From contig CADCTC010000170.1 of the NCBI GenBank assembly GCA_902805635.1, positions 8,354 to 72,353 of the forward strand: a stretch of DNA of 64,000 nucleotides, written 5' to 3'. Of the stretch, positions 26,803-42,024 are shown piece after piece. The stretch's first letter is position 1. Each line of letters starts with the position of its first letter. Under the pieces are notes generated by a model. The model was not told the origin of the DNA, ran no database searches, and saw nothing but the letters and a program-made list of their open reading frames with translations. Source of the DNA: an uncultured Chloroflexota bacterium. Its GTDB lineage: Bacteria > Chloroflexota > UBA11872 > UBA12225. Both the position numbers and the translations under genes were made by a program.

Positions 26803-27537
26803 CTACTGCGCGCCTGCCCGCCCCACGAACAACCGCTCCATGCCACCATGCCGGCGGGCAACGGCCAGCAGGTGCTTGCATGGGATGCCTCTATAAAGGA
26901 AATCGGCACACTCGCAGGCGATCACCTCGCCATCGCCATCCTGCCCCGGCACACGGAACGTGACGTGGTAGGACTGGTCCGGGTGCGACTCCGACTGCAC
27001 CTCGTACTCGCCACCGCCCAGGTCGCGCACGGCCAGCTCGCCTGCGCGGCGCGTGCGCTCCGGCAGCCACTCCACCAGCGGCGCTAGCGCCAGCGAGCGC
27101 GCCTGGTTGGCGCCGGTGGAGATCGCCTCCACCGCGTGGCGGCCTAGCTGCTGTGACGCTTGCTCCAACGCCGGTCTCCAGCCCGCCACGTGCTGTGGCC
27201 ATTCGCCTGTGCCGCCCATTGCCTGCGACAGGCGCGGGTCGTCTACCAGGAAGGTAGGACTTTCCAGTCCGCTGGCATGTGAAAGGCGCATCGCCAGCAG
27301 AAGCGCCTGCGCCGTCGCCTCATCGCGGCGGGCCTGGCCCAGATAGCTGGAGCGCTGCGCCAGCACGCGGCCGCGCTCATCCGTAACCACAATGCCGGCG
27401 CCGGCTGGCCCCGGCTCGGTGAGCGCCAGCACGGCGGCAACGTACACTCGGCGGCCCTGCCCGGCGGCGCGCTGGCCGAACCCGCGTACCGGGAACTCTT
27501 GTGACGGCTCTGGCGGCGGCGCGGTCTGTGTTTCCAT
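26803..27537 (-). CDS. RNase H-fold-like N-terminus fused to a SWIM zinc finger
   Basis: GAGIVVTDERGRVLAQRSSYLGQARRDEATAQALLLAMRLSHASGLESPTFLVDDPRL; SWIM-type CECADFLYRGIPCKHLLA. Confidence 0.7.
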   Translation of the reverse strand: METQTAPPPEPSQEFPVRGFGQRAAGQGRRVYVAAVLALTEPGPAGAGIVVTDERGRVLAQRSSYLGQARRDEATAQALLLAMRLSHASGLESPTFLVDDPRLSQAMGGTGEWPQHVAGWRPALEQASQQLGRHAVEAISTGANQARSLALAPLVEWLPERTRRAGELAVRDLGGGEYEVQSESHPDQSYHVTFRVPGQDGDGEVIACECADFLYRGIPCKHLLAVARRHGGMERLFVGRAGAQ

Positions 27538-27646
27538 TGGTTCCCTTCAAATTGGGACCGGGCACCGCGCTGAGCGCATGTCGGACCCGGTTCCAGGTGA
27601 GCAAGGTCTGTGCCACGCTGTGCACGACACCGCCGTGAATCGTGGC

Positions 27647-28852
27647 ATGAGGTTTGCCCACCGCAATGCACCTCTACCGCCCATGCAAGTGACACGAGAA
27701 CAACCGAAGACCGGGGTGCTGACATTCCACCGCTGCATCAACTACGGCAGCTACTGGCAGGCGCGCTGCCTGGTGGAGGGACTGCGCGGGCGCGGCCTGG
27801 ACGCGGTCCTATTGGAGCACGACTCTCCGCGGGTGACGACGGCCGAGTGGCAGTGCGCCCTTCAACCGGTCTTGCCCGAGTACGTCCCGTACGCGGACCG
27901 GCTGCGGTATGGCGTGAAGTTGCTGAGATTCTTGCGTGCATTTGCCGCGCTGCCTCGCTCGCGCCGCTTCCCGCTCGATGATCCCGGCGGTGCGCGCGGC
28001 GCGAACGACGCCCCGGCCATGGATGCGTACCGCCTGGTGGTGGTCGGCAGCGATGAGGTCTGGAACCTGCGTCACCCCTGGTTCGGTGGGTGCGGGCTCT
28101 TCTGGGGAGAGGGAGTCCGTGCGAGCCGGCTGGTGTCGTACGCGGCGAGCTTTGGGAACCACGACACCGTGCTGGAGCCATGGTGGGCAGACCGGCTGCG
28201 GCGCTTCGACTCGATCTCTGTGCGCGACGAGAACTCGCTGGGCCTCATTCGGAGTGCGCTGGGGTTTGAGCCGGACCTCGTGCTCGATCCCTGTCTGCAG
28301 TTTTCTGAGCGGCTGCCGCAGCCGCAGGGACGTTGGCGCGGTCCACGCGAGCCGTTTGCGGCCGTCTATGGGCACAGCTTTACACCGTCGTTCGCACAGG
28401 AGGTGCGTCGCTGGGCGCATGGCCGTGGCCTCCCGCTTGTGAGCATCGGCTACCGCAATGCCTGGGCAGACGTGCAGTGGCTCACCGCCGGGCCGCACGA
28501 CTTCGCGCAGTGCATCGCCCGGGCCGAGGCGGTGGCGACCAACTTCTTCCACGGCTGCGTCTTCGCACTGGCGCACACGCGGCCGTTCGTCTGCGAGGCG
28601 TCGTCCTATCGTTCCATCAAGGTGCAGAACCTCATGGCGACGGTAGGGGGCGAGGCGCACGTGATGCGGGCAGAATCCCCACCGGAAGCGTACGACGCAC
28701 AGCTGGGCGAACCTCCTCACCCGGCGATGGCTAACACCATACGGCGGATGCGTGAATCCTCGAATCGCTACCTCGATCGTGCTGCCGGCGTGCACGGCGC
28801 CGGCAGAGGTGACCGTGCGCCGGAGGCGGAACCGGCGCCGCTGGCGGCCTGA
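27647..28852 (+). CDS. Polysaccharide pyruvyl transferase family protein
   Basis: TGVLTFHRCINYGSYWQARCLVEGLRGRGLDAVLLEHD; VVGSDEVWNLRHPWFGG; SYAASFGNHD; FDSISVRDENSLGLI; ATNFFHGCVFALAHTRPFV. Start uncertain. Confidence 0.93.
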   Translation: MRFAHRNAPLPPMQVTREQPKTGVLTFHRCINYGSYWQARCLVEGLRGRGLDAVLLEHDSPRVTTAEWQCALQPVLPEYVPYADRLRYGVKLLRFLRAFAALPRSRRFPLDDPGGARGANDAPAMDAYRLVVVGSDEVWNLRHPWFGGCGLFWGEGVRASRLVSYAASFGNHDTVLEPWWADRLRRFDSISVRDENSLGLIRSALGFEPDLVLDPCLQFSERLPQPQGRWRGPREPFAAVYGHSFTPSFAQEVRRWAHGRGLPLVSIGYRNAWADVQWLTAGPHDFAQCIARAEAVATNFFHGCVFALAHTRPFVCEASSYRSIKVQNLMATVGGEAHVMRAESPPEAYDAQLGEPPHPAMANTIRRMRESSNRYLDRAAGVHGAGRGDRAPEAEPAPLAA

Positions 28853-28856
28853 CGCC

Positions 28857-30293
28857 ATGGCAGCCGGCACCGATCTTCTCCTTTCTCCACACGACATCGT
28901 GCGCTCTGGCCTCTGCATCGGCTGTGGCAGCTGTGTGGCCCAGACAGCCGTGCACGCAAATGCCTCGCCGGAAGCCGACACGAGCTGGGCAGATCCGCAC
29001 GAGCCGCGGATGGAGCTGGACCGCTTTGGCCTGCTGAAGCCCGTGGGGGCGCCTGAGTGGTTCCGCCGCAAGTCGGCCGTGTTCACGCGCACGTGCCCGT
29101 TCTCGCCGGCGGCGCGCGACGAGGATGAGCTCGCCGCGGACCTGTTCGCCGACGCGCCAATGCAGGACCCGCGCGTGGGGCGGTATCTGTCGGCGTACGT
29201 GGGCTACGCGTCCGAAGGCGGGTTCCGTGATCGGGGCAGCTCCGGCGGCATGGTTAGCTGGGTGCTGGCGGAGCTCATGCGCGCCGGACTGGTCGACGGC
29301 GTGGTCCACGTCGCCGAGTCCGCCGACCCGCAGGCCGCCGGGCGCTTCTTCCGCTACCGAGTGTCGCGCACCGAAGAAGAGCTCCGCGCCGGCGCAAAGT
29401 CGCGCTACTACCCGATCGAGCTGTCCGATGTGCTCCAAACCATCCGCACCATCCCCGGCCGCTACGCGGTGGTCGGCATCCCCTGTTTCATCAAGGCGGT
29501 GCAGCTACTGCGCCGCGAGGACCCGGTAATTCAGGAGCGCGTGGCATTCACGCTGGGGCTCTTCTGCGGCCACATGAAGAGCGCGCGATTTGTGGAGAGC
29601 TTCGCCTGGCAGATGGGCGTCTCCGTGGCGGACGTGCAGCGGGTCGAGTTCCGCCTCAAAGACGCTACCCGCCCCGCCAGCTGGTACACCGCGCAGCTCA
29701 CGCTGCGCGACGGCAGCACCGTGAAGAAGGACTGGTGGCACCTGGCAGACGGTGACTGGGGCGCGGGTTTCTTCCAGAGCTCCGCCTGCAACTTCTGCGA
29801 CGACGTGGTGGCGGAGACAGCCGACGTCTCGTTCGGCGATGCGTGGGTAGAACCCTATTCGTCCGACGGGAACGGAACCAACGTCGTGGTGGTGCGCTCC
29901 CTTGCCGTGGACGAGCTCGTGTCTGCAGGCATCCGGGAGGGCCGCCTCACGCTGGAGCCGGTGGACAGCGCTTTCGTGGCACAAACACAGGCCGCCGGTC
30001 TCCGCCAGCGACGTGAGGGGCTCGCGTACCGCCTGACATGGCGTCGCTCCGGTGTACACCCACGCAAGCGCGTGGCTCCTGATGCCACGTCAGCCACACC
30101 ACGGCGCAAGCTGACGTACCGGATGCGCGCCATCATCTCCGCGTGGAGCCACCGCATGTTCTGGCTCGCTCGCGTTACCGGCCGGCCGCAGCTCTATACA
30201 CAGTGGGCGCGCGGCGCAGTCGCCGTCTACCACGGGCTGGCCTATTCGCGTGGCAGGGTTGGCGCTGTGATGGAATGGGCACACTTGCGCTAA
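28857..30293 (+). CDS. Coenzyme F420 hydrogenase/dehydrogenase beta subunit (FrhB-like) family protein
   Basis: CIGCGSCV; GSSGGMVSWVLAELMRAGLVDGVVHV; YAVVGIPCFIKAVQLLRREDP; GLFCGHMKSARFVESFAWQMGV; CNFCDDVVAETADVSFGDAW. Confidence 0.92.
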   Translation: MAAGTDLLLSPHDIVRSGLCIGCGSCVAQTAVHANASPEADTSWADPHEPRMELDRFGLLKPVGAPEWFRRKSAVFTRTCPFSPAARDEDELAADLFADAPMQDPRVGRYLSAYVGYASEGGFRDRGSSGGMVSWVLAELMRAGLVDGVVHVAESADPQAAGRFFRYRVSRTEEELRAGAKSRYYPIELSDVLQTIRTIPGRYAVVGIPCFIKAVQLLRREDPVIQERVAFTLGLFCGHMKSARFVESFAWQMGVSVADVQRVEFRLKDATRPASWYTAQLTLRDGSTVKKDWWHLADGDWGAGFFQSSACNFCDDVVAETADVSFGDAWVEPYSSDGNGTNVVVVRSLAVDELVSAGIREGRLTLEPVDSAFVAQTQAAGLRQRREGLAYRLTWRRSGVHPRKRVAPDATSATPRRKLTYRMRAIISAWSHRMFWLARVTGRPQLYTQWARGAVAVYHGLAYSRGRVGAVMEWAHLR

Positions 30294-30367
30294 GGCGCAG
30301 CGCAGCAGAAGAGTGGGGCAATGCCATTTCACCGGGCTGGCAGTGGGGCAAGCACAGCCGGAGTGGC

Positions 30368-31318
30368 ATGGCTCTTGCTGCCGTACCGGCCGCAATGGTG
30401 GAGACAGTGGGGAAGCTGCAGGCGGCACATCGCGCGGGACGGCAGGGAACCAATGGCAGGGCAAGGGGCACAGGAGCAAACGGCACGGCCGTGATCCGCG
30501 CGGCGGAGTCAGCAGAGGCACAGGTGCTTCGGAGAGAGATCGACGCGATTGGTCCCTGGTTCCACAACCTGCGGCTCCCGGTCGACGGCGCTGCCGGGGA
30601 GCACGCGGAGACGGCGCCAGATCACCCCTTAGGGGATTTCCCGAGTGTGTTCTGGAGTGCGTTCGGCCAAGCGGTGCCCGACGATCTCACCGGCAAGTCC
30701 GTGCTGGACATTGGCTGCAACGGGGGCTTCTACTCCTTTGAAATGCAGCGCCGCGGCGCTGCGCGCGTGTTGGGCATCGATCACGACCCCGTCTACCTGC
30801 GCCAGGCCGAATTTGCGCGCGAGCGCCTTGGGCTGAGCGCGCGCGACGTGGAGTTCCGTCGCCTGGGCGTCTACGACGTGGACCAACTCGCGGAGCAGTT
30901 CGACCTGGTCTTCTTCATGGGGGTTTTGTATCACCTACGCCACCCGCTGTACGCCCTGGAGAAGGTGGCCGGGCTGGTGCGCTGCCCAGGCGGTCGCCTG
31001 GTGTTCCAGACGATGGAGCGCGGCGTGCAGGAGACGGTGCAGGTGGCGGAAGATTACCCTTTCGCCGAACGCGGGATCTTCTACGACGAGCGCTTCCCGC
31101 GCATGTACTTTGTGGAGCACCGCTACGCGGGCGACTGGACCAACTGGTGGATCCCCAACCCTGCGGCCACGCAAGCAATGCTCCGCAGCTGCGGGCTCGA
31201 CATCGTGGAACGCCCGTGTGGCGAAGTGTACGTCTGCGCCCCCAAGGATGCCGTACGACTCTGGGGCAGGACAGGCGCAGCCGTGCCGGCCGACGGGCTA
31301 GCCAGATCTAGCGACTGA
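30368..31318 (+). CDS. Class I SAM-dependent methyltransferase (DUF1698/CmoB-like)
   Basis: LTGKSVLDIGCNGGFYSFEMQRRGAARVLGIDHDPVYLRQAEFA; FDLVFFMGVLYHLRHPLYALEKVAGLV. Start uncertain. Confidence 0.9.
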   Translation: MALAAVPAAMVETVGKLQAAHRAGRQGTNGRARGTGANGTAVIRAAESAEAQVLRREIDAIGPWFHNLRLPVDGAAGEHAETAPDHPLGDFPSVFWSAFGQAVPDDLTGKSVLDIGCNGGFYSFEMQRRGAARVLGIDHDPVYLRQAEFARERLGLSARDVEFRRLGVYDVDQLAEQFDLVFFMGVLYHLRHPLYALEKVAGLVRCPGGRLVFQTMERGVQETVQVAEDYPFAERGIFYDERFPRMYFVEHRYAGDWTNWWIPNPAATQAMLRSCGLDIVERPCGEVYVCAPKDAVRLWGRTGAAVPADGLARSSD

Positions 31319-32420
31319 GTGCCGGAACCGCAGCGGGCCGCGCGATCTCCCGCTGCACCACCTGCTCGAACCGTTCGGCGCGCGAGGCGTAGGTGTGGTC
31401 GCGCTCCACGCGGGCACGAGCCCGGCGGCCGATCTCACGCGCTGACCCGGCTGGCGTGTTCCGCAAGTGACGCACGATGTCTTCTGCGTTCTCCGCGACG
31501 AGGATCTCCTGGTCAGGGACGAAGAACTGGTCCACGCCGATCCAGCTGTCCGTAACGAGGCAGCTAGCGCAGCCGGCGGCCTCGAAGACGCGCGTGGCGG
31601 GACTGTAGCCAAGGCGCGCCATGTCCTCGCGTGTGATGTTCAGCACCATACGCGCTGAGCAGTTCCAGGCGCGGTGTTCGCCTGTGGGCACATGGCCAAT
31701 CGCGCGCACGTTTGGAGGCAGGTCCACCCACTCGTGCCAGCCCGAGCCGCCCAAGACGAACGTCATCTCGGGCGCCAGGCGCGCGGCGCGGAAGAACAAG
31801 TCGTGCACGCGCTGCTCGCGGTCGGGCAGCCGGTTGCCCATGAAGAGCAGGTCGCACGCGCGCTCCGGCACCGGCGGCACGGCGTAGTAGTCGTCCAGGT
31901 CCACCGCGTTGTAGACCAGGTGTGCAGCGCGCGCACCCAGCCGGGCGTAGCTCTGTTGCACTGGGGGGCCGCCGCCGTAGAGCAGCACCATATCGAACCG
32001 CGGCACTAGCGCGCGGAAGGTGGTCGGGTCATCCTCCGGCTCGGCGAACGCCGCCGCCAGGGTGGCCGGCGCATCCACGTCCCAGAAGGCAACCAGCGTT
32101 CCAGTCTGCTGGAGCGCCAGCACGCCCCGCGCGAGCTCCAGCTCCCAGCCGCCCACTCCACTGAACTTGGCGACGAAGTCCGAGGCGCGCGCACGCTCCA
32201 GCTCGTGCGCCAGGTCATCCCAGCCCCGGCAGACGCGCACCTCGGCGTACGGCGGGTCATCCACAAGGTCGCGGTGCTGCTGCCGGTCGTAGATATCCGG
32301 CTCCACAAAGGTAATCTCATGCCCCCGCGCGTGCAGCGCGCGGCACAGTCCGCGGTAGTACGTGGCTGCGCCGTTCCAGTACGCCGAGACGATGCTGGAG
32401 CCGAAGATGGTGATCTTCAT
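31308..32420 (-). CDS. CgeB-family glycosyltransferase (copy 1)
   Basis: MKITIFGSSIVSAYWNGAATYYRGLCRALHARGHEITFVEPD; LGYSPATRVFEAAGCASCLVTDSWIGVDQFF. Confidence 0.9.
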   Translation of the reverse strand: MKITIFGSSIVSAYWNGAATYYRGLCRALHARGHEITFVEPDIYDRQQHRDLVDDPPYAEVRVCRGWDDLAHELERARASDFVAKFSGVGGWELELARGVLALQQTGTLVAFWDVDAPATLAAAFAEPEDDPTTFRALVPRFDMVLLYGGGPPVQQSYARLGARAAHLVYNAVDLDDYYAVPPVPERACDLLFMGNRLPDREQRVHDLFFRAARLAPEMTFVLGGSGWHEWVDLPPNVRAIGHVPTGEHRAWNCSARMVLNITREDMARLGYSPATRVFEAAGCASCLVTDSWIGVDQFFVPDQEILVAENAEDIVRHLRNTPAGSAREIGRRARARVERDHTYASRAERFEQVVQREIARPAAVPALSR

Positions 32421-33628
32421 CTTGCGAGCGCGGCGTGTCGTGGCGCAGAGATGGCTTTCTGCTGAGGGCTGGGGACGGCGATGGCTGTCTGCGGCTGGCG
32501 AAGCCGGGCCACAATTGTGAGTAGCTGCTCGGCGCGATGACGGCACGTGTGGTGGGCCAGCACGCGCGCAACACCGCTGCGCCCCAGCTTCTCGCGCGCG
32601 TCGTGGTCGTGCCACAGCCAGTCCAGTGCTTCGAGCATGTCCTTCTTGGTGTCCACTACCAAGTAGTCCTGGCCCTCGCGGAACAGCCCATCCACATCCG
32701 GCCAGCGCGTGCTAACCAGTGCCGTGCCGCACGCCAGCGCCTCGAAGACGCGGATGGTGGGGATGCCAGGCAGGGCCTGCATGTACTGCTGGCGCACCAC
32801 GTGCAGCGCCACCCGTGTCTGGGCGAACGCCTGCGGCGCGTCGGCATTGGGCAGCCAGCCGCGGTACTCCACGCCGTAGTGGCGGCGCAGTTGGTCCAGC
32901 ACCTCCGGTGGGTAGCGCACGCCGTAGATGGCGAAGCGGCGCGCGCCGCGGAAACGCCGCGCCGGGCGCAGCAAGTACTCGCGCAGCTCACGTGCGCGGT
33001 CTTCGTCACCCCAGTTGCCGATGAAAAGCGCGTCATCCACCGGGCGCTCCAGGTCGGGCGGTGCAGGGTGAAAGAGCGCTACGTCCGCCGCCTCGTGCAC
33101 CACGTGCACGTCGGCGACGCCACGCCGGCGGTACTCGGCGGCGATGGATGGCCCATACGCCAGCACCGAATCGAACCGCTCCAGCCCCAGCCGCTCCACC
33201 GCCTCGGGCTGAGTCAGGATGCGGTAGTGGGTGTCATGGAAGAAGAGCAGGAACCCGCAGCGGCGCTTGAGGCGGGCCAGCAGCTCCACCAACTGCGGAT
33301 TTTCCACCCCCGGCCACTCGTGAACCACCACCACGTCTACCCCGGCCAGCTCCTCCGCCAACCGGCGCTCCAGTGCCGCCGTCTCGGTCGGGGTAGGGTC
33401 GTACAGGCGAGTCGTCACGAACGGGAAGCGCCGGCGGAACGCCACCAGCGGCGACAGACCGTGCTCGGCTACTAGGTTGGAGACGGACCAGCCGCGCCGC
33501 TCCTCGTAGACGACCGCCTCGTGTCCCATCTGGACGAGCGAGCGGACCATGCCCCGCAGGAAATGTGCATTCCCGTGGTTCCAGTCCGAGCGGACCGAGT
33601 GATAGAAGAGTGCGAAGCGCAAGCTCAT
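32417..33628 (-). CDS. CgeB-family glycosyltransferase (copy 2)
   Basis: MSLRFALFYHSVRSDWNHGNAHFLRGMVRSLVQMGHEAVVYEERRGWS; PTIRVFEALACGTALVSTRWPDVDGLF. ATGA overlap with copy 1. Confidence 0.9.
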   Translation of the reverse strand: MSLRFALFYHSVRSDWNHGNAHFLRGMVRSLVQMGHEAVVYEERRGWSVSNLVAEHGLSPLVAFRRRFPFVTTRLYDPTPTETAALERRLAEELAGVDVVVVHEWPGVENPQLVELLARLKRRCGFLLFFHDTHYRILTQPEAVERLGLERFDSVLAYGPSIAAEYRRRGVADVHVVHEAADVALFHPAPPDLERPVDDALFIGNWGDEDRARELREYLLRPARRFRGARRFAIYGVRYPPEVLDQLRRHYGVEYRGWLPNADAPQAFAQTRVALHVVRQQYMQALPGIPTIRVFEALACGTALVSTRWPDVDGLFREGQDYLVVDTKKDMLEALDWLWHDHDAREKLGRSGVARVLAHHTCRHRAEQLLTIVARLRQPQTAIAVPSPQQKAISAPRHAALAR

Positions 33629-33643: not shown

Positions 33644-34960
33644 TCAGGGTGTCGGCGTCTGGTGCAGTGCGTCAGGCCTTGGGAGTGGCCGCGGCGCACT
33701 GGCTACGGCAGCCAAGGGTTCCACCAACTGCTCAGTCGAACGAGCGCCGCCGGACCGCGTTGCGCCAAGTAGCTCACGATACAGGCCAAGATAGGCGGCG
33801 GCCATGCGCTCGTGCGTGTAGCGCGCCCGGACTCGGGCGTGCGCCAGCGTGGCGTAGTGCGTCACCGTTGGGCGGTCGCCGGACAGGCGCTCGAGCAGCG
33901 CCGCCAGCGCCCCCGGCGTGTTGCGCTCGAAGTAGAGCGCCGCCGGACCCCAGACCTCGCGATACGAAGGGATGTCATTGGCCACCACCGCACACCCCGC
34001 CAGCGCCGCCTCGGCCGGTCCGAGCCCAAACGGGTCGTAGCTGGCCGGAGCGATGCACAGCGCCGCCCGGCCGAGCAGGCTGGCCAGCGCGTGTTTGTCC
34101 AGGAAACCGCTGTAACTCAGGCCCGGTGCCGCGGGCATGGCGGATGGCGGGCGGCCGGGCTCGACCACCTCGCCCGCCACCTCCAGGCGCCAGGGACGGC
34201 GGCACAGCCGCAACGCCTCAGCCACCAGCTTGACGTTCTTGGCTTCGTCCCACGCACGCCCCGCCACCGTCACGGCCAGGTCGTCCTGGCGACCGACCTC
34301 TTGCGTTTCATCGTCCGCATTGACCGAGTCCACGGGCAGCGCGACGGCGTTGTGCACCACGTGCGGCGTGCGATCGAGCTGGTAGTGGCGCGTGATCTCG
34401 CCGGCCAGGAAACCGGACGGGCACACCACGGCGTCCGCCTGCTGCAGCGCGTGCCGCGCCAGGTCCAGCTGCCAGCGCAAGTAGTCCGGCAGAGTGCGCG
34501 GCGCCTCACCACCGTCCTTCACCCACGTCCACCACGTCACCAGGTCGCTGTGCACTCCCAGCAGCACCGGCGGCCGGCGCCCACCTTGGCCGCCACCTGC
34601 GCCACTCGTCCGGCCCAGCGCCTCGCCCACGCCGGCCAGCCCCAATTGGTTCACGTGTACCAGGTCCGCGCGCCATTCGGCTGCCAGCGCGCCGGCAGCG
34701 GCTCGGTGGCGCTCCAGCCAGTCACGCCCGCCCTCCATCCACTCCAGGCGCCCATCCAGCTGGCGCAGCGCCAGGCCCGGCACGGCGCGTGCGGCGGCCA
34801 CCTGCGACTCCGCCGGAGGCGGCCCCACCACGGCCAGCAGCACCTTCGCCTGGCCAGAGTGCCCCAGCGCCTGCGCGAGCGCCAGGCACGAGTCCCAGAC
34901 GCCGCCCACAGCGTCAGTCACCAGCAGCACGCGCAGCGGGTCAGACACGCGATCACGCAT
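33644..34960 (-). CDS. Glycosyltransferase family 4
   Basis: RVLLVTDAVGGVWDSCLALAQAL; VVCPSGFLAGEITRHYQLDRTPHVVHNAV; PASYDPFGLGPAEAALAGCAVVANDIPSYREVWG. Confidence 0.93.
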   Translation of the reverse strand: MRDRVSDPLRVLLVTDAVGGVWDSCLALAQALGHSGQAKVLLAVVGPPPAESQVAAARAVPGLALRQLDGRLEWMEGGRDWLERHRAAAGALAAEWRADLVHVNQLGLAGVGEALGRTSGAGGGQGGRRPPVLLGVHSDLVTWWTWVKDGGEAPRTLPDYLRWQLDLARHALQQADAVVCPSGFLAGEITRHYQLDRTPHVVHNAVALPVDSVNADDETQEVGRQDDLAVTVAGRAWDEAKNVKLVAEALRLCRRPWRLEVAGEVVEPGRPPSAMPAAPGLSYSGFLDKHALASLLGRAALCIAPASYDPFGLGPAEAALAGCAVVANDIPSYREVWGPAALYFERNTPGALAALLERLSGDRPTVTHYATLAHARVRARYTHERMAAAYLGLYRELLGATRSGGARSTEQLVEPLAAVASAPRPLPRPDALHQTPTP

Positions 34961-35837
34961 AGCGGCGGGCCACCTGCTGGCAAAAGTAGGCGAACTCACC
35001 GGGATCGATTGGCGGGCTGGTGTGGTCCGCGCGCAAGCCGCGGCTGGGCGGCGTGAAGCACAGCGTCGCCGTCACCTCGAATGGATCGAGCGCGCGCATC
35101 ATCTGGTCGAAGAACTCCCAGCCACCCGGCACGCACGAGTCCCCCCAGCTCAGGCCCGTGCGCAGTGAGCGCACGCCCAGCCGCTTGAGCCATGAAACGG
35201 TCCGGTCCAGCTGCTCGTAGTCGCCCAGGTGGATCCACTGCACCAACCCCCACTCCGGAGGAAAGTGGCGCAGCGCCAGCTTGGGCGTGCCGTCCGCGGT
35301 GAGCAGGCCGAAGTAGAAGTGCCGGAAGTACGACGATCCCTCGGCCTGCTTGTGGCGCGTCGTCGCGTCACGTGTGTGTGGCAGATCGAAGAGCGAGTAC
35401 CAGAAGATCTCGTCCACCAGCGGCGGGAGCAGCTGCATCGTCTTTTGCAGCCCGATCTCCTGGACCTCCTCGCACCCAAAGCTGCTCGTCCCCACCTCGG
35501 TGGCCCAGATGGGCAGGTCGGTCACCGCTCGAATCTCGGCGACGCGCTCCGGCCACTGGTCGATCGGCCACAGGTGCCAGTCGAACGGAAAGCCGTGGAT
35601 CGCCACCGCATCCACGTGCTGCTTTAAGTCGTGGCCGTTGACGAGACGGTCCATGAAATTCGCGTCGATCGGCGCGATCCCACCCAGCACCACCGGGAGC
35701 CCCGGCGCCTCGCGGTGCAGCTCGGCGGCGCTCCAGCGCACCATCTGCGCGTAGATGGACCACTCGGGATCGAGCGTGAAGTCCCAATGGGAGAGGTTAT
35801 TCGGCTCGTTCCAGAGCATGACGGCACGCAGCGTCAC
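34953..35837 (-). CDS. TIM-barrel glycoside-hydrolase-like protein with apparently circularly permuted motif order (copy A)
   Basis: Starts MTLRAVMLWNEPNNLSHWDFTLDPEW; then IWATEVGTSSFGCEEV; IFWYSLFDLP; ends LGVRSLRTGLSWGD...TLCFTPPSRGLRADHTSPPIDPGEFAYFCQQVARRYA. Confidence 0.8.
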   Translation of the reverse strand: MTLRAVMLWNEPNNLSHWDFTLDPEWSIYAQMVRWSAAELHREAPGLPVVLGGIAPIDANFMDRLVNGHDLKQHVDAVAIHGFPFDWHLWPIDQWPERVAEIRAVTDLPIWATEVGTSSFGCEEVQEIGLQKTMQLLPPLVDEIFWYSLFDLPHTRDATTRHKQAEGSSYFRHFYFGLLTADGTPKLALRHFPPEWGLVQWIHLGDYEQLDRTVSWLKRLGVRSLRTGLSWGDSCVPGGWEFFDQMMRALDPFEVTATLCFTPPSRGLRADHTSPPIDPGEFAYFCQQVARRYA

Positions 35838-36982
35838 GCGGCCTCCCCTCCTGCCACATGGCTCATGGTTCGCAGCGGCGACGCATCGGGCACAGTGGGC
35901 ACATCAGGGGTATGCCCCCCGGCAGGGACACCCAGCTCCGCCAGCAGCTGGTGCAGCTGGTCTACGCGCTGAACGTACGTGTGGCCGGCCAGGATGCGCC
36001 GCCGCGCGGCGTCGCCCATGCGGCGGCGCTCGACGTCGGGCACGTCAAATGCGGCCAGCACGTCATCACGGGTCGTGGCCACCAGCGCCTCACGTCCGGC
36101 TACAAAGAACGTCTGGAACCCCGGCCAGCTATCTGAGATGAGCGGCGCGCCACACGCAGCGGCCTCGAAGAGCGTCACAGAGGGCGACCAGCCGATGTGG
36201 CGCATCTGCCGGCGCGTCGCCTTGACCTGCCAGGCGCAGCTGGCATGAAATGCGGCGTGCTCCGGCGGGCTAACGTGCGCGAAGTGCGCGACGTTGGGCG
36301 GCAGCGCAATCTCCGCCGGGTACTGCGGCCCTGCCAGCGCGAACCGCCGCTCCGGGCAGAGCCGCGCCGGAGCCAGGAACAGCTCGTCCACCATGTCCTG
36401 GCGCGCGTCCGAGTACGTCCCCATGTAGCCAAGGTCGCAGCGGAAGCGCTCGTCGGGCGCCACCGGCCGGTAGAGCGCGGCGTCGACCGCGCAGTAGAAC
36501 GGCTCTACCCGCCGCGCGCCGAACGCGCGCAGCTCGTCCAGCACCGGGCCGCCGCCGAAGGACAGCACCAGGTCGAAGCGCGCAAGCTGGTCGGCGCGCA
36601 GGTAGTCGGTGCGCCCCACCTGGCGGAACTGCTCAAGCGTGACTGGTGTGTCGATGTCGTAGTAGACGAGCAGCGCGCGCGTTGCACCCGGCAGCCAGTC
36701 CGCGATCGCCACGCCATCGACGGCGTAGCTGCCCAGCACTACCACGTCCGCTCCGGCCACAGCAGCCTCCACCGCGGGAGGCGGCCACGCGTCGTAGCGC
36801 CGGATGTCGCAGTAGTCCGCCTGTGGCAGGTCGCAGTTGGCGTCGTACCACTGCGTGCGCCGCTCGTAGAACGTCACGTCGTGCCCGCGCGCCGCCAGCT
36901 CGCGCACCAGGCCGCGGAACGTCGTCGCGTGGCCGTTTCCCCAGCTGCTCGCTATAGACAGGCCGAAGAACACGAAGTTCAT
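35834..36982 (-). CDS. CgeB-family glycosyltransferase (copy 3)
   Basis: MNFVFFGLSIASSWGNGHATTFRGLVRELAARGHDVTFYERRTQWY; IGWSPSVTLFEAAACGAPLISDSWPGFQTFF. Confidence 0.92.
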   Translation of the reverse strand: MNFVFFGLSIASSWGNGHATTFRGLVRELAARGHDVTFYERRTQWYDANCDLPQADYCDIRRYDAWPPPAVEAAVAGADVVVLGSYAVDGVAIADWLPGATRALLVYYDIDTPVTLEQFRQVGRTDYLRADQLARFDLVLSFGGGPVLDELRAFGARRVEPFYCAVDAALYRPVAPDERFRCDLGYMGTYSDARQDMVDELFLAPARLCPERRFALAGPQYPAEIALPPNVAHFAHVSPPEHAAFHASCAWQVKATRRQMRHIGWSPSVTLFEAAACGAPLISDSWPGFQTFFVAGREALVATTRDDVLAAFDVPDVERRRMGDAARRRILAGHTYVQRVDQLHQLLAELGVPAGGHTPDVPTVPDASPLRTMSHVAGGEAA

Positions 36983-37989
36983 CAGCGGCGTCCCTCCGTA
37001 CCGCTCTGCCTGGCGGCGCTGCCGTCGTGTATGCCGTCGCCGCCCTCCGCGAGCACCACCGCCTTGACGAACCCTTCCGGTCGCGCCGCCGCGGTTTCGA
37101 ATGCGTGCTGCAAGTCGTCCAGGCGGAATCGGTGGGTGACCAGCGGCGCCACCTGGAGGTCACCCCGCGCCGCCAGCGCCAGCCCCCGCCGCGCGCCGTC
37201 CACCATCTTCTCGCGTGAGCGGAAATGGCAGTTGGCAATGCGCAGCGCCTTCCAGTTCCATTCGTGCACCGGGACCTGGCGACCGGCTCCCTGGTGGTAT
37301 CCCACAATGGCGAGCGTCCCCTCCGGCCGCAACAGAGACGCGCTGATCGCCAGCATCTCCTCCGACCCGGTTGCTTCGATCACCACGTCCACACCCTCAC
37401 CTTGGGTCAGCTCCCAGACGCGGCCCTGCACCTCGTCTGTGCCACAGGTATGGGAAGCACTCAGCTCTCCGGCCAGCGCACGCGCCTCCGGTCGCCGCGC
37501 CGCGACCAGCAGCCAGCGCGGCGCTGCCCGGCGCACCAGCTGCGCCAGCAGCAGCGCCATAAAGCCGGCGCCCAGGATCACCACGCGGTCGTCGGGCCGC
37601 ACGCCGATCGTGTCCAGAGAATTAACAGCGCACGCCAACGGCTCCGCCAGCGCCAGGTCAGGCGCCAAGCCTTCCGGCACAGGCAGCGCCGCGGCTGCGT
37701 CTACCGTCACCAGTGCGCCATACGCGCCGCCGGCCAGCGCCGGCGCCGCCAGGTCACCCACCTGCCAGCCCGTCACACCCGGCCCCACCGCCTCCACGCG
37801 TCCCACTGCCTCATGCCCCAGCCGCGCCGGGTACTGCTGCCACGGGTTGCGCCCCAGGAAGACGTCCAGCTCGCTGGCGCACAGGCCGCACGCCACCGTG
37901 CGGAGGAGTAGTTGACCCGTCTCCGGGTCCGGAGCCTGCTGCTCCGCCGAAGCAAACCTCCCAGGGCCCTCCAGCACCATCACCCGCAT
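36982..37989 (-). CDS. Medium-chain (zinc-type) alcohol dehydrogenase family protein
   Basis: CGLCASELDVFLG; RLGHEAVGRVEAVGPGVTGWQVGD; DRVVILGAGFMALLLAQLV; GVDVVIEATGSEEM. Confidence 0.94.
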   Translation of the reverse strand: MRVMVLEGPGRFASAEQQAPDPETGQLLLRTVACGLCASELDVFLGRNPWQQYPARLGHEAVGRVEAVGPGVTGWQVGDLAAPALAGGAYGALVTVDAAAALPVPEGLAPDLALAEPLACAVNSLDTIGVRPDDRVVILGAGFMALLLAQLVRRAAPRWLLVAARRPEARALAGELSASHTCGTDEVQGRVWELTQGEGVDVVIEATGSEEMLAISASLLRPEGTLAIVGYHQGAGRQVPVHEWNWKALRIANCHFRSREKMVDGARRGLALAARGDLQVAPLVTHRFRLDDLQHAFETAAARPEGFVKAVVLAEGGDGIHDGSAARQSGTEGRR

Positions 37990-38215
37990 ATCACGTTCAC
38001 CACTCGCACTGCCTGCCGCCGCACCGCATCTGTCCTCCCCACCTGCGCCTCTCTAGACACCGGTAAGCTTCTTCTACTTACCAGCGCGAAGGCTCATTGA
38101 CCTGTGCAGGAACTGTGCCACCGAAGTAGATCGCAAAGCGGCATGCGGTTTGCCGAGAACGCTCGCCCCGGCGCAGTCCCATCTAGGCTACGGCGGGACG
38201 CAAAAGGAGCGAGTG

Positions 38216-38878
38216 ATGACCGGATCCGGCACGATAGGCAGTGAGCGAGAGCCCGGCGGGGGCGGAGCGGTCCCGCAGAGCACCGGCGCGGCCGATGTAA
38301 CGCACACATCCGACACCAGCGGTGGATCGAGCGCGATTGGACGGGCGAGCGCCGGCCTCACCGGCCTCGGCGCCGACTCGGCCAGCTCGGGTGATTCCCT
38401 ACAAGGCGGACAGACCGAGCGCACGACGCTTGGCGATGCCCAGGGCACCCAAGGCGCAGGCCTCAACCTCGGCCTCGGCAGCGGCGCTGCCGGCGGCCTG
38501 GGCATGCACGGCGATACGGAAGCGCGGCTGCGCGCCGAAGTCACCGGTCCCAGCGGCGGCGCGGCCGGCAGTGCCACACCGCACGGTGTGGAGCAGGCCG
38601 GCTCTGCCGACGGAGCGGCCGGAGGCTTGGGTGGTGGCCTGGGCGGTCCGAGCGGCGCAGGAGCGGGCACGGTGCGTGCCCGCGGCGCCGATGGCCACGA
38701 GAGCGGCGCTGGCCTGCGCGGCACAGGCGCCATGAACGACGACCGCGCGGACGAAACCGGCGCCTCGCCGGAAGCGCAGGACGGGACCACCACCGCGGCG
38801 CACGGCGGCAGCATCATCGACCGCGTCACCACCGGCCAGGGCGGCGACGTCGGTGGTGGGCTGACCGGACCGGGGTAA
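38216..38878 (+). CDS. Gly/Ala/Ser-rich low-complexity protein, unknown function
   Basis: RBS-like AAAGGAGCGAG before ATG; MTGSGTIGSEREPGGGGAVPQSTGAADVTHTSDTSGG..., no fold motif recognised. Confidence 0.55.
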   Translation: MTGSGTIGSEREPGGGGAVPQSTGAADVTHTSDTSGGSSAIGRASAGLTGLGADSASSGDSLQGGQTERTTLGDAQGTQGAGLNLGLGSGAAGGLGMHGDTEARLRAEVTGPSGGAAGSATPHGVEQAGSADGAAGGLGGGLGGPSGAGAGTVRARGADGHESGAGLRGTGAMNDDRADETGASPEAQDGTTTAAHGGSIIDRVTTGQGGDVGGGLTGPG

Positions 38879-38923
38879 AGTAGGCTGCCGCTCCCCAGAA
38901 CGAGGCAGCACCACGAGGGCAGC

Positions 38924-39808
38924 ATGATTGAGGCGGTCAAGCTTTGGAACGAGCCGAATAACCGGTCGCACTGGGACTTCACGCTCGACCCGGAGTGGAC
39001 CGCCTTCTCGCGTTTGGTGACGCTGGCGGCGGACGCCGTGGCGGCCGAGCGGCCGGGGCTGACCCGCGTGCTGGGCGGCATCTCGCCCATCGACCCGGAC
39101 TTCCTGGGCACGCTCCAGCGTCAAGGCGTGCTGGACCACGTAGACGCGGTGGCGGTGCACGGGTTTCCAATGGACTGGAACCCGTGGTCGGTACACGAGT
39201 GGCCGGATCGCCTGGCGGAGGTGCGCGCCGTCACCGGCCTGCCGCTCTGGGTCACCGAGGTGGGCGTGTCCAGCTTCGGCTGCGAGGAGGTGCAGGCGTT
39301 CGGCGTGCGGCGCACGGCGGAGCTGCTGGGCGGCCAGGCCGAGCGCATCCACTGGTACAGCCTGTTCGACCTGCCCCGCGACTGGGGCGCCGAATCGCTG
39401 GACCCCGACTCGGAGGGAGAAGCCTACTTCCGCCACTTCCACATGGGGCTGCTGCGCGCCGGCGGCGCGCCCAAGCAGGCGCTGCGCGTCTTCGCGGAGC
39501 ACGTCCCCCCGCTGGGCATCTGCCAGTGGTTCCATATGGACGACGCGCGCCTGGACGACGCGGTGCGCCTGCTGCGCGACCTGGGGGTGCGGTACCTGCG
39601 CACCGGCCTCTCCTGGGCGGACAGCTACCGGCCCGACGCGCTGGCGTGGTTCGACCGCCAGATGGCGGCGCTGGAGCCGTTCGACCTGACGGTGACCTTC
39701 TGCTTCACCCCCGCCGCGCAGGGCCTGACGCCGCACCACACCAGCCCACCGCGCGAGCCCGAAGCCTTCGCCGACTTCTGCGCCGCAATGGTGCGTCGCT
39801 ACGCGTAA
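38924..39808 (+). CDS. TIM-barrel glycoside-hydrolase-like protein with apparently circularly permuted motif order (copy B)
   Basis: MIEAVKLWNEPNNRSHWDFTLDPEW...LWVTEVGVSSFGCEEVQ...IHWYSLFDLP...LGVRYLRTGLSWADSY...FDLTVTFCFTPAAQGLTPHHTSPPREPEAFADFCAAMVRRYA. Upstream in-frame TAA at 38876. Confidence 0.8.
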   Translation: MIEAVKLWNEPNNRSHWDFTLDPEWTAFSRLVTLAADAVAAERPGLTRVLGGISPIDPDFLGTLQRQGVLDHVDAVAVHGFPMDWNPWSVHEWPDRLAEVRAVTGLPLWVTEVGVSSFGCEEVQAFGVRRTAELLGGQAERIHWYSLFDLPRDWGAESLDPDSEGEAYFRHFHMGLLRAGGAPKQALRVFAEHVPPLGICQWFHMDDARLDDAVRLLRDLGVRYLRTGLSWADSYRPDALAWFDRQMAALEPFDLTVTFCFTPAAQGLTPHHTSPPREPEAFADFCAAMVRRYA

Positions 39809-39900: not shown

Positions 39901-42024
39901 ATGGCGATCGACATCGGGGTCGACACGAAACGACCGTTCTCAAGGTCTGGCGGCACGCAGGAACTCCCAGAAGCGCCAGCAGCGCAGCCCGCCCCACTGC
40001 TCTCCGCCCAGGCACAGGCGCTGGGGTTCTCAACGCTCGATGCGCTGAAGCGCGAGGTGCTCCGCCAGCGCGCCACCTGGTGGCAAGGGGAGCGGTTCCA
40101 CTGTCCACTGTGTGACGAGGACTACGCGGACGCGGCGCCGGCAGCGGACCACGTCGTGCGCCTGCAGCACCCCGTGCTGCGCGTGGACGGCGTCCGTCCA
40201 CGTACCGCGGCGCCGTGTTGGGCGGACGCGGAGCTCGACTACGTGCGCGCGCTGCGCGGTCCCAACCTCCACGCGCGCACCCCGGTCCTGAAGGTGACGT
40301 TGATGGAGCGCAAAGCCGACGGAGTGGCGGCGCGACCGGTCACTTCTCGCTTCACCACCCGTCTGGCCACCGCGCTGCCCGGATTGGCTGGCGATCACGG
40401 TATCCGCTCGCTGCAACGGCGGCTGGGCAGCCGCAGCGGCGGCGCCCCCATCGCGCTGGCGGCGCGGTTGGCGGCCCAGGAGCTGCTGCGCCTGGCGGGC
40501 CACGAACCGGAGATCGCCAAAATGCTGCCCGACCCCGATCCGCAGACCTGCGGGTTCCTCCTGGGTTACACCGACGAGGCGCTGGGACGTTTGGCGGTAG
40601 AGGCAGCGGCGCAGCTGACGCTCGCCGCCTGGCGCGGCACGGCCTACGACATTGCCGGTGATCTCGACCGGCTGCGCGCGCTGTCGACAGCGCCTTCCCC
40701 TAACGTACGCCGGATGGCGGTGGCCGCGCCGGGGCGACCCGGTCGTACCGCCGCTGTTGCTGCGCCCGGCCGTGGGCGGGCCGGCGCACGCCCTGGAGCG
40801 GTGCTGGCGCAGATTCCGGTGATCGCGGTCACGGGCACAAACGGCAAGACCACCACCACGCGTCTGATCGCCCACATGTACGAGACCGCGGATCACGTGG
40901 TGGGGCTGACTTCCACAGAGGGCACCTACATCGACGGCGAGCGCGTCATGAAAGGAGACTGCTCCGGACCCAAGAGCGCGCGTACCATCCTCTCTGACGA
41001 ACGGGTGGAGGCAGCCGTGCTTGAAACGGCGCGCGGCGGCATCTTGCGCGAGGGGCTGGCGTTCGAGAGCTGCACGGTGGGAGTGGTGACCAACGTCACG
41101 GCGGACCACCTGGGCATAGGGGGCGTGCATACGCTGGCGGACCTGGCGCGGGTGAAGCAGGTGGTGGTGCAGGCGGTACGTCCCGACGGCGCGGCTGTGC
41201 TGAATGCGGACGATCCGCTGGTGGCCGGCATGGTCGCCGCCACCGAGGCGCGCACCGTCTTTTTCTCCACCAGCGCCCGCAACGCCGTGGTCACGGAGCA
41301 CCTCTCACGGGGTGGCGCGGCGGTGCTGGCGCAGGACGGCGAGATCCTGCTGGCAGCCGGCAACCTGCGCACGCGCGTCGCCCGGCTGGAAGCGGTGCCG
41401 TTCACCGCGGGTGGGCGCATCCTCTTCCAGGTCAAGAACGCGCTGGCGGCCACCGCCGCCGCCTGGGCAGCGGGCCTGGGCCTGCGCGCTATTGCCCGCG
41501 CGTTGGCCACGTTCCAGACCGACGCCGCCACGGTGCCAGGCCGCTTCAACGTGGGAGAGTACGCCGGCGTGGAGGTGGTGCTCGATTACGCGCACAACCC
41601 GGGCGCCCTGGAGGCACTGGGTGCTGCGGTGCAGGCGCTGGCGCCGCGCCGCACCATCCTGGCGATCGGCCTGCCGGGCGACCGGCGCGATGACGACCTG
41701 CACGCCAGCATGGCTGCCACCCTGGGTTGGGTGGACGAGTACGTGCTGTGCGACCACGGTGACCGGCGCGGCCGGACGGAAGGCGAAGTGCCGCGCTTGC
41801 TGCAGCGCGTGGTCCCCAGCAGCACGCCCTCGGTCTGTGCCACCAGCCAGGCGGACGGCATCTCGCTCGCGTGGGAGCGCGCCCGTCCCGGCGATCGCAT
41901 CGTCGTCATCGTCTACGACGCCGAGACAGCCTTGGCCCAGGTGCAGGCGCTGGCGCACGCGGCGCCGTTCGGTGGACCACAGCACGAAAACACCTCAGGC
42001 AACGGATCGCCACGCTCAGCGTAG
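39901..42024 (+). CDS. Cyanophycin synthetase-like Mur ligase lacking an ATP-grasp domain
   Basis: ALRGPNLHARTPVLKVTL and LPGLAGDHG...RLAAQELLRLAG resemble the CphA N-domain; IPVIAVTGTNGKTTTTRLIAHM, TSTEGTYIDGERVMKGDCSGPKSARTIL, LETARGGILREGLAF, GVVTNVTADHLGIGGVHTLADLARVKQVVV. Confidence 0.88.
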   Translation: MAIDIGVDTKRPFSRSGGTQELPEAPAAQPAPLLSAQAQALGFSTLDALKREVLRQRATWWQGERFHCPLCDEDYADAAPAADHVVRLQHPVLRVDGVRPRTAAPCWADAELDYVRALRGPNLHARTPVLKVTLMERKADGVAARPVTSRFTTRLATALPGLAGDHGIRSLQRRLGSRSGGAPIALAARLAAQELLRLAGHEPEIAKMLPDPDPQTCGFLLGYTDEALGRLAVEAAAQLTLAAWRGTAYDIAGDLDRLRALSTAPSPNVRRMAVAAPGRPGRTAAVAAPGRGRAGARPGAVLAQIPVIAVTGTNGKTTTTRLIAHMYETADHVVGLTSTEGTYIDGERVMKGDCSGPKSARTILSDERVEAAVLETARGGILREGLAFESCTVGVVTNVTADHLGIGGVHTLADLARVKQVVVQAVRPDGAAVLNADDPLVAGMVAATEARTVFFSTSARNAVVTEHLSRGGAAVLAQDGEILLAAGNLRTRVARLEAVPFTAGGRILFQVKNALAATAAAWAAGLGLRAIARALATFQTDAATVPGRFNVGEYAGVEVVLDYAHNPGALEALGAAVQALAPRRTILAIGLPGDRRDDDLHASMAATLGWVDEYVLCDHGDRRGRTEGEVPRLLQRVVPSSTPSVCATSQADGISLAWERARPGDRIVVIVYDAETALAQVQALAHAAPFGGPQHENTSGNGSPRSA

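Follow-up and report, generated by a model that had tools for sequence, protein, structure and literature searches.

PslG, a GH39 enzyme of Pseudomonas aeruginosa (PDB entries 5bx9 and 4zn2), is encoded in a polysaccharide biosynthesis cluster, carries a signal peptide and has the canonical β1-to-β8 strand order. Its acid/base is Glu165 and its nucleophile is Glu276 (PMC11912335), and through hydrolysis it shapes what the psl cluster produces (PMC9075953). Natural circular permutation has been described in other enzymes: transaldolase B is a naturally permuted TIM barrel relative to class I aldolase (PMC2213659), GH70 glucansucrases are a natural circular permutation of the glycoside hydrolase barrel of GH13 (PMC9732880, PMC11299179), and the 1,3-1,4-β-glucanase of Fibrobacter succinogenes (GH16) is cited in PMC2213659 as a naturally permuted glycosidase.

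We analyzed a 64,000-nucleotide stretch of DNA from an uncultured Chloroflexota bacterium (the window, to which coordinates refer unless a locus is named). It encodes two proteins, copies A and B, that very probably belong to a naturally circularly permuted barrel family in clan GH-A, related to GH39 and PslG.

Copies A and B: genes, predicted fold and cluster

Both copies are ORFs of 294 residues, as a sequence-only reading of this DNA had reported: A at 34953..35837 on the minus strand, with all GH-A signature residues kept, and B at 38924..39808 on the plus strand, supported by profiles and an AlphaFold2 (AF2) model. The two proteins are 55% identical, start about six residues ahead of L-W-N-E-P-N-N and stop at R-R-Y-A. 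In B, W8-N-E10-P-N-N is followed by W109-V-T-E112, then by WYSLFDLP (residues 144-151), and only then by a C-terminal segment that runs to the stop, ICQWFH...LGVRYLRTGLSWAD...FDLTVTFCFTP...FADFCAAMVRRYA, which is the order of catalytic motifs that the sequence-only reading had described. B starts with ATG, and the in-frame TAA said to lie 16 codons upstream was found at 38876-38878. The overlap of A with the upstream CgeB-like gene, previously given as ATGA, had to be corrected: the start codon of A is GTG, and it is GTGA that overlaps the TGA of that gene. We placed the start at GTG rather than at the ATG of M7 because a start at M7 would remove strand 4, and because relatives begin at the position equivalent to GTG.

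An AF2 model of B built with the family alignment has a mean pLDDT of 92.3 and a pTM of 0.90, and the model of A (pLDDT 91.9, pTM 0.90) has the same layout. In the B model, strands at residues 2-7, 47-53, 75-80, 108-113, 141-145, 197-200, 224-230 and 254-260 alternate with helices, E10 comes right after the first strand, E112 lies at the end of the fourth strand, and the linker joining the old termini comprises about five residues (192-196). The lowest-confidence part of both models is around residues 155-170. A and B are thus each predicted to form a complete eight-strand barrel read β4-5-6-7-8-1-2-3, with closure inferred from the layout and not from coordinates. Neither a fold without a barrel nor the canonical strand order, either of which would have counted against the proposed permutation, was predicted for either protein. 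A canonical β1-to-β8 chain order from the N-terminus, which is defining for sequence profiles but not for mechanism, is not met by A or B.

The residue criterion of clan GH-A, an Asn-Glu acid/base after β4 and a Glu nucleophile after β7, is met by N9-E10 and E112. By profile alignment, Glu10 at the end of β4 (38951..38953, plus strand) is the predicted acid/base, equivalent to PslG Glu165, and Glu112 at the end of β7 (39257..39259, plus strand) is the predicted nucleophile, equivalent to PslG Glu276 (PMC11912335). Both residues, together with the other GH-A signature residues N9, H79, W144 and R226, are invariant in 76 of 76 aligned relatives. A near-invariant TTRH loop (T157-T158-R159-H160), kept in A and in nearly all relatives, reads ESLD in B (39392-39403), a loss with which B may be altered in specificity or less active.

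The plus strand of the window carries an ORF of the polysaccharide pyruvyl transferase-type neighbor cluster c11 (27392..28852; no NCBIfam match, the equivalent neighbor in locus L098 being so annotated), an FrhB-like coenzyme F420 hydrogenase beta-subunit protein (28752..30293; 58.7 bits, under the curated cut-off) and a TIGR04290 family methyltransferase (30143..31318; 332 bits, over the cut-off of 300). On the minus strand are two CgeB-like glycosyltransferases (Pfam PF13524; 31308..32423 and 32417..33628), a GT4-type glycosyltransferase (33644..34942), another CgeB-like glycosyltransferase directly upstream of A (PF13524 by Pfam; 35834..36982) and a member of the Zn-dependent alcohol dehydrogenase family (36982..37989). 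Just upstream of B, a Gly/Ala-rich ORF of 242 residues (38150-38878) has no Pfam or NCBIfam match and may be spurious. The ORF after B (39901-42024, 707 residues) begins with a long N-terminal region that matches no Pfam model, followed by the middle and C-terminal domains of a Mur ligase; it presumably resembles the C-terminal half of cyanophycin synthetase.

In 74 related loci, where neighbor identities rest on one representative per cluster and genes in high-GC loci were called with codon-position GC, the most frequent neighbors are inositol-3-phosphate synthase (INO1; 47 loci), the TIGR04290 methyltransferase (43 loci), SDRs (41 loci) and a histidine phosphatase (38 loci). The TIGR04290 methyltransferase is directly upstream of the permuted gene in at least 34 of these loci. 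The INO1 neighbors suggest that the oligosaccharide contains inositol. Their INO1 profile is of the mycothiol type. The literature searched, which excluded subscription papers, contained nothing on TIGR04290/TIGR04295 clusters.

A glycosidase role for the family, inferred in the absence of activity data, appears quite likely. The proteins are most likely retaining, double-displacement β-glycosidases or transglycosidases, although the activity, the substrate and the choice between hydrolysis and transfer are all inferred. Because the protein starts at a barrel strand and leaves no room for a signal peptide, we infer a cytoplasmic location. The enzyme would hydrolyze or transfer a β-linked sugar, with an intermediate or a side product from the glycosyltransferase/SDR/methyltransferase cluster as its target, and by analogy its role in oligosaccharide assembly likely parallels that of PslG in the psl cluster. 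The alternative that the permuted GH-A-like barrel is no longer a glycosidase, and acts instead as a binding or scaffold protein or has another cyclitol or nucleotide-sugar activity, is unlikely but retains some weight: the family is embedded in biosynthetic clusters that include inositol-3-phosphate synthase and SDRs, a canonical relative forms a fusion with an SDR, and B has lost a conserved loop. However, the catalytic glutamates and remaining signature residues do not vary among the 76 relatives, and PslG, likewise encoded in a biosynthesis cluster, is an active glycosidase (PMC9075953).

Dependence of sequence similarity on chain rotation

Searches with A and B in native order gave little. 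The only Pfam match was to PF11790 (Glyco_hydro_cc), below the cut-off (19.1 and 17.8 bits against 21), with residue 4 of A aligned to profile position 67 and the first quarter of the model missing, and NCBIfam had no match to either protein. Rotation of B by itself hardly altered its Pfam score (17.8 to 18.4 bits), so that Pfam is uninformative on permutation. Sequence membership above cut-off in GH39 or in Pfam glycosidase models is not met and the similarity to PslG is distant; CAZy was outside this comparison.

PslG was the only strong PDB match of B in a single-sequence phmmer search, and it aligned in swapped pieces, with PslG 28-128 matched by B 203-293 and PslG 132-287 by B 3-150. A profile of nine sequences in native order also matched PslG in two swapped pieces (27.8 + 9.7 bits, total E 4e-9). 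When the same nine sequences were rotated at residue 188, the profile gave one collinear match covering PslG 25-304 (57.5 bits, E=1e-14). In this alignment E10 and E112 fall on two PslG chain glutamates 111 residues apart, which we identified as Glu165 and Glu276 from the equal spacing. A phmmer search of the PDB with the canonical-order barrel of locus L076 returned no match; the link to PslG therefore runs through the profile of the permuted family.

We also rotated A and B in 7-residue steps and scored each rotation against an HMM of canonical-order homologs. The best-domain score of B was 106 bits in native order, 71 bits at its lowest and 160 bits at its best (k=189); the corresponding values for A were 89, 66 and 152 bits. 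Both scans peaked at residue 190, the predicted α8/β1 (strand-8/strand-1) junction, and shuffled sequences scored at most 6 bits. Once rotated, both copies share 30-37% identity with the canonical homologs over about 280 columns. The native C-terminus RYA followed by the N-terminus M-I-E-A-V resembles in shape the uninterrupted RYGSHVDAV stretch of the canonical protein, in keeping with the earlier suggestion that the C-terminal RRYA would join naturally to the N-terminal WNEPN. Since the RY/M-I-E-A junction lines up in this way, no structural element was removed or duplicated by the permutation. The new internal junction, from the old C-terminus (α8) to the old N-terminus (before β1), is placed by the AF2 model and the rotation optimum at B residues 188-196 (39485..39511, plus strand).

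Foldseek comparison of B with the PDB found no full-length solved match, only partial barrel matches with a best TMq of about 0.45. Foldseek compares in chain order, and such partial matches are expected for a permuted chain but are not positive proof. Pseudo-symmetry is a feature of TIM barrels, and structural matches to them are commonly shifted (PMC2213659), as in the Foldseek result, which leaves room for an ordinary, unpermuted barrel whose pseudo-eightfold symmetry allows alignment in a shifted register. We regard this as very improbable and reject pseudo-symmetry as the cause. In the PslG profiles and the rotation scans it is the sequence match, and not the fold alone, that depends on rotation, and the close canonical homologs align over about 280 columns only after rotation, with identical catalytic motifs in rotated order.

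Distribution, origin and canonical-order relatives

One scan of GTDB species genomes yielded 78 loci, nearly all full length and 55-70% identical to B. With 116 full-length members in about eight phyla, the permuted form constitutes a conserved family of single-domain proteins, which answers the question of distribution raised by the sequence-only reading. The phyla, assigned from record titles and tree rows, are Pseudomonadota (several classes), Myxococcota, Acidobacteriota, Gemmatimonadota, Verrucomicrobiota, Fibrobacterota, a Bdellovibrionota-type group and Chloroflexota; in the phylum of the window's own genome, 10 of 301 genomes have a member. This phylum also includes a genome whose copy is identical to that of Herpetosiphonaceae (Chloroflexota), which by itself makes a Chloroflexota assignment probable. 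Matches over at least 80% of B were also present in 97 plasmid records, annotated, where at all, as 'beta-xylosidase', 'glycosyl hydrolase' or 'hypothetical protein'.

All 116 members have the N-segment followed by the C-segment, and no second or upstream β1-β3 copy was found in any of them; homologs with β1-β3 ahead of WNEPNN, which would have refuted the permutation, are thus absent from this set. The start lies six residues before L/I-WNEPNN in 75 of 76 aligned relatives, and the C-terminus ends 0-31 residues past RRYA in all. Given these conserved start and end positions, the motif order in A and B is not due to chance. It is scarcely conceivable, although the upstream frame is open for 100-300 codons in some relatives, that the true start lies upstream with β1-β3 or that the ORFs are fragments, and we reject a missed segment or wrong start because the start position is conserved, many relatives, B among them, have in-frame stops 7-30 codons upstream, an extra β1-β3 segment occurs in 0 of 116 members, and the "missing" segment sits at the C-terminus.

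A maximum-likelihood tree built from 125 rotated sequences (116 permuted and 9 canonical) has one branch (100/100) that divides permuted from canonical proteins, and a single change explains the labels. As far as sequences can tell, this fits an origin of the permutation in one event. We infer that the permuted order is derived because the canonical order is that of PslG and of clan GH-A in general. No tandem-duplicate intermediate was found among the 125 sequences. Copy A clusters with a member from its own bacterial family (100/99), and B falls elsewhere in the tree, where its nearest rows are Acidobacteriota, Gemmatimonadota and Proteobacteria. These separate positions rule out a recent tandem duplication. 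Judged by the tree, A and B are anciently diverged copies, and B was possibly acquired by horizontal transfer. The proposal that the permutation is maintained in two paralogs therefore stands in that both copies are permuted, but they belong to a large multi-phylum family and are not a recent duplicate pair.

The nine relatives in ordinary segment order are about 33% identical to the permuted proteins in the barrel after rotation. Where the whole gene could be read, the barrel is followed on its C-terminal side by an SDR epimerase. Hosts are rhizobia, Microvirga, Geminicoccaceae and Xanthomonas sacchari. Three such fusions (L076:6010-8097, L081:8968-11001 and L084:8959-11013) are annotated only as 'NAD-dependent epimerase/dehydratase', and Pfam has no model over the barrel part of the L076 fusion. 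The SDR of the latter shares 48-52% identity with the second, free-standing SDR of the permuted clusters but only 25-27% with the first. Clusters with canonical proteins are of the same type as the permuted ones and contain the TIGR04290 methyltransferase, several glycosyltransferases with CgeB-like ones among them, tandem SDRs and, in one case, a TIGR04295 radical SAM protein. On a Xanthomonas sacchari plasmid (L083), the canonical barrel is split over two frames by a frameshift or sequencing error, and the annotated gene begins inside the barrel. A plasmid of Rhizobium sp. CB3090 (L099; W02:C1:1361000-1380900) has permuted and canonical barrels about 15 kb apart, so simple replacement of the canonical by the permuted form is not general.

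The general criteria for natural circular permutation, namely a whole domain, exchanged head and tail and a homolog in the other order, are met by this family. The natural permutation first inferred from the letters of A and B is upheld by the rotation-dependent gains, the complete barrel models, the 116 permuted relatives and the sister group in normal order.

Proposed permutation and comparison with known systems

In the proposed mechanism, an ancestral (β/α)8 gene would have been opened in the α3-β4 loop, which in TIM barrels is on the face away from the active site. The old C-terminus after α8 would have been joined to the old N-terminus before β1 through the linker of about five residues, with no strand lost or duplicated. 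The permuted chain would then fold as an ordinary barrel, with the acid/base E10 on β4, now the first strand, and the nucleophile E112 on β7.

Natural permutation of TIM barrels was already known. None was found for clan GH-A: the literature searched, which excluded subscription papers and CAZy, describes no permuted enzyme of this clan, and priority is not proven. We consider it fairly likely that this is the first permuted family of the clan, with a single origin and a range of about eight phyla, acting in a cytoplasmic, TIGR04290/TIGR04295-associated oligosaccharide pathway in which the canonical sister persists as an SDR fusion, with both forms on one plasmid. To our knowledge, few enzyme barrels are naturally permuted, and for most of these no close relative with the other strand order can be traced. 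In the present case the permuted and canonical forms, about 33% identical, share a type of gene cluster and in one instance a plasmid, making the cost, benefit and origin of the permutation directly testable. Order-dependent methods (Pfam, NCBIfam, Foldseek) overlook the family or give it a wrong label, and order dependence probably keeps it, like other permuted enzymes, out of CAZyme surveys. The family is in addition a marker of a widespread and unexplored oligosaccharide pathway, which occurs on Sinorhizobium megaplasmids among other places.

Among the known systems, GH70 glucansucrases are large, multidomain, extracellular α-glucan enzymes of clan GH-H. They differ from the present family in not belonging to clan GH-A, and the GH16 glucanase differs in having a jelly-roll fold rather than a barrel. 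Transaldolase B is an unrelated enzyme with a two-unit shift and without glycosidase chemistry. PslG is the best PDB sequence match, and both of its catalytic glutamates align with those of the permuted proteins, which are only distantly similar to it, start at β4 and consist of a single barrel of 290 residues. The canonical barrel-SDR fusions share the signature residues, the type of gene cluster and the level of barrel identity noted above, and differ in their normal strand order and in the fused SDR.
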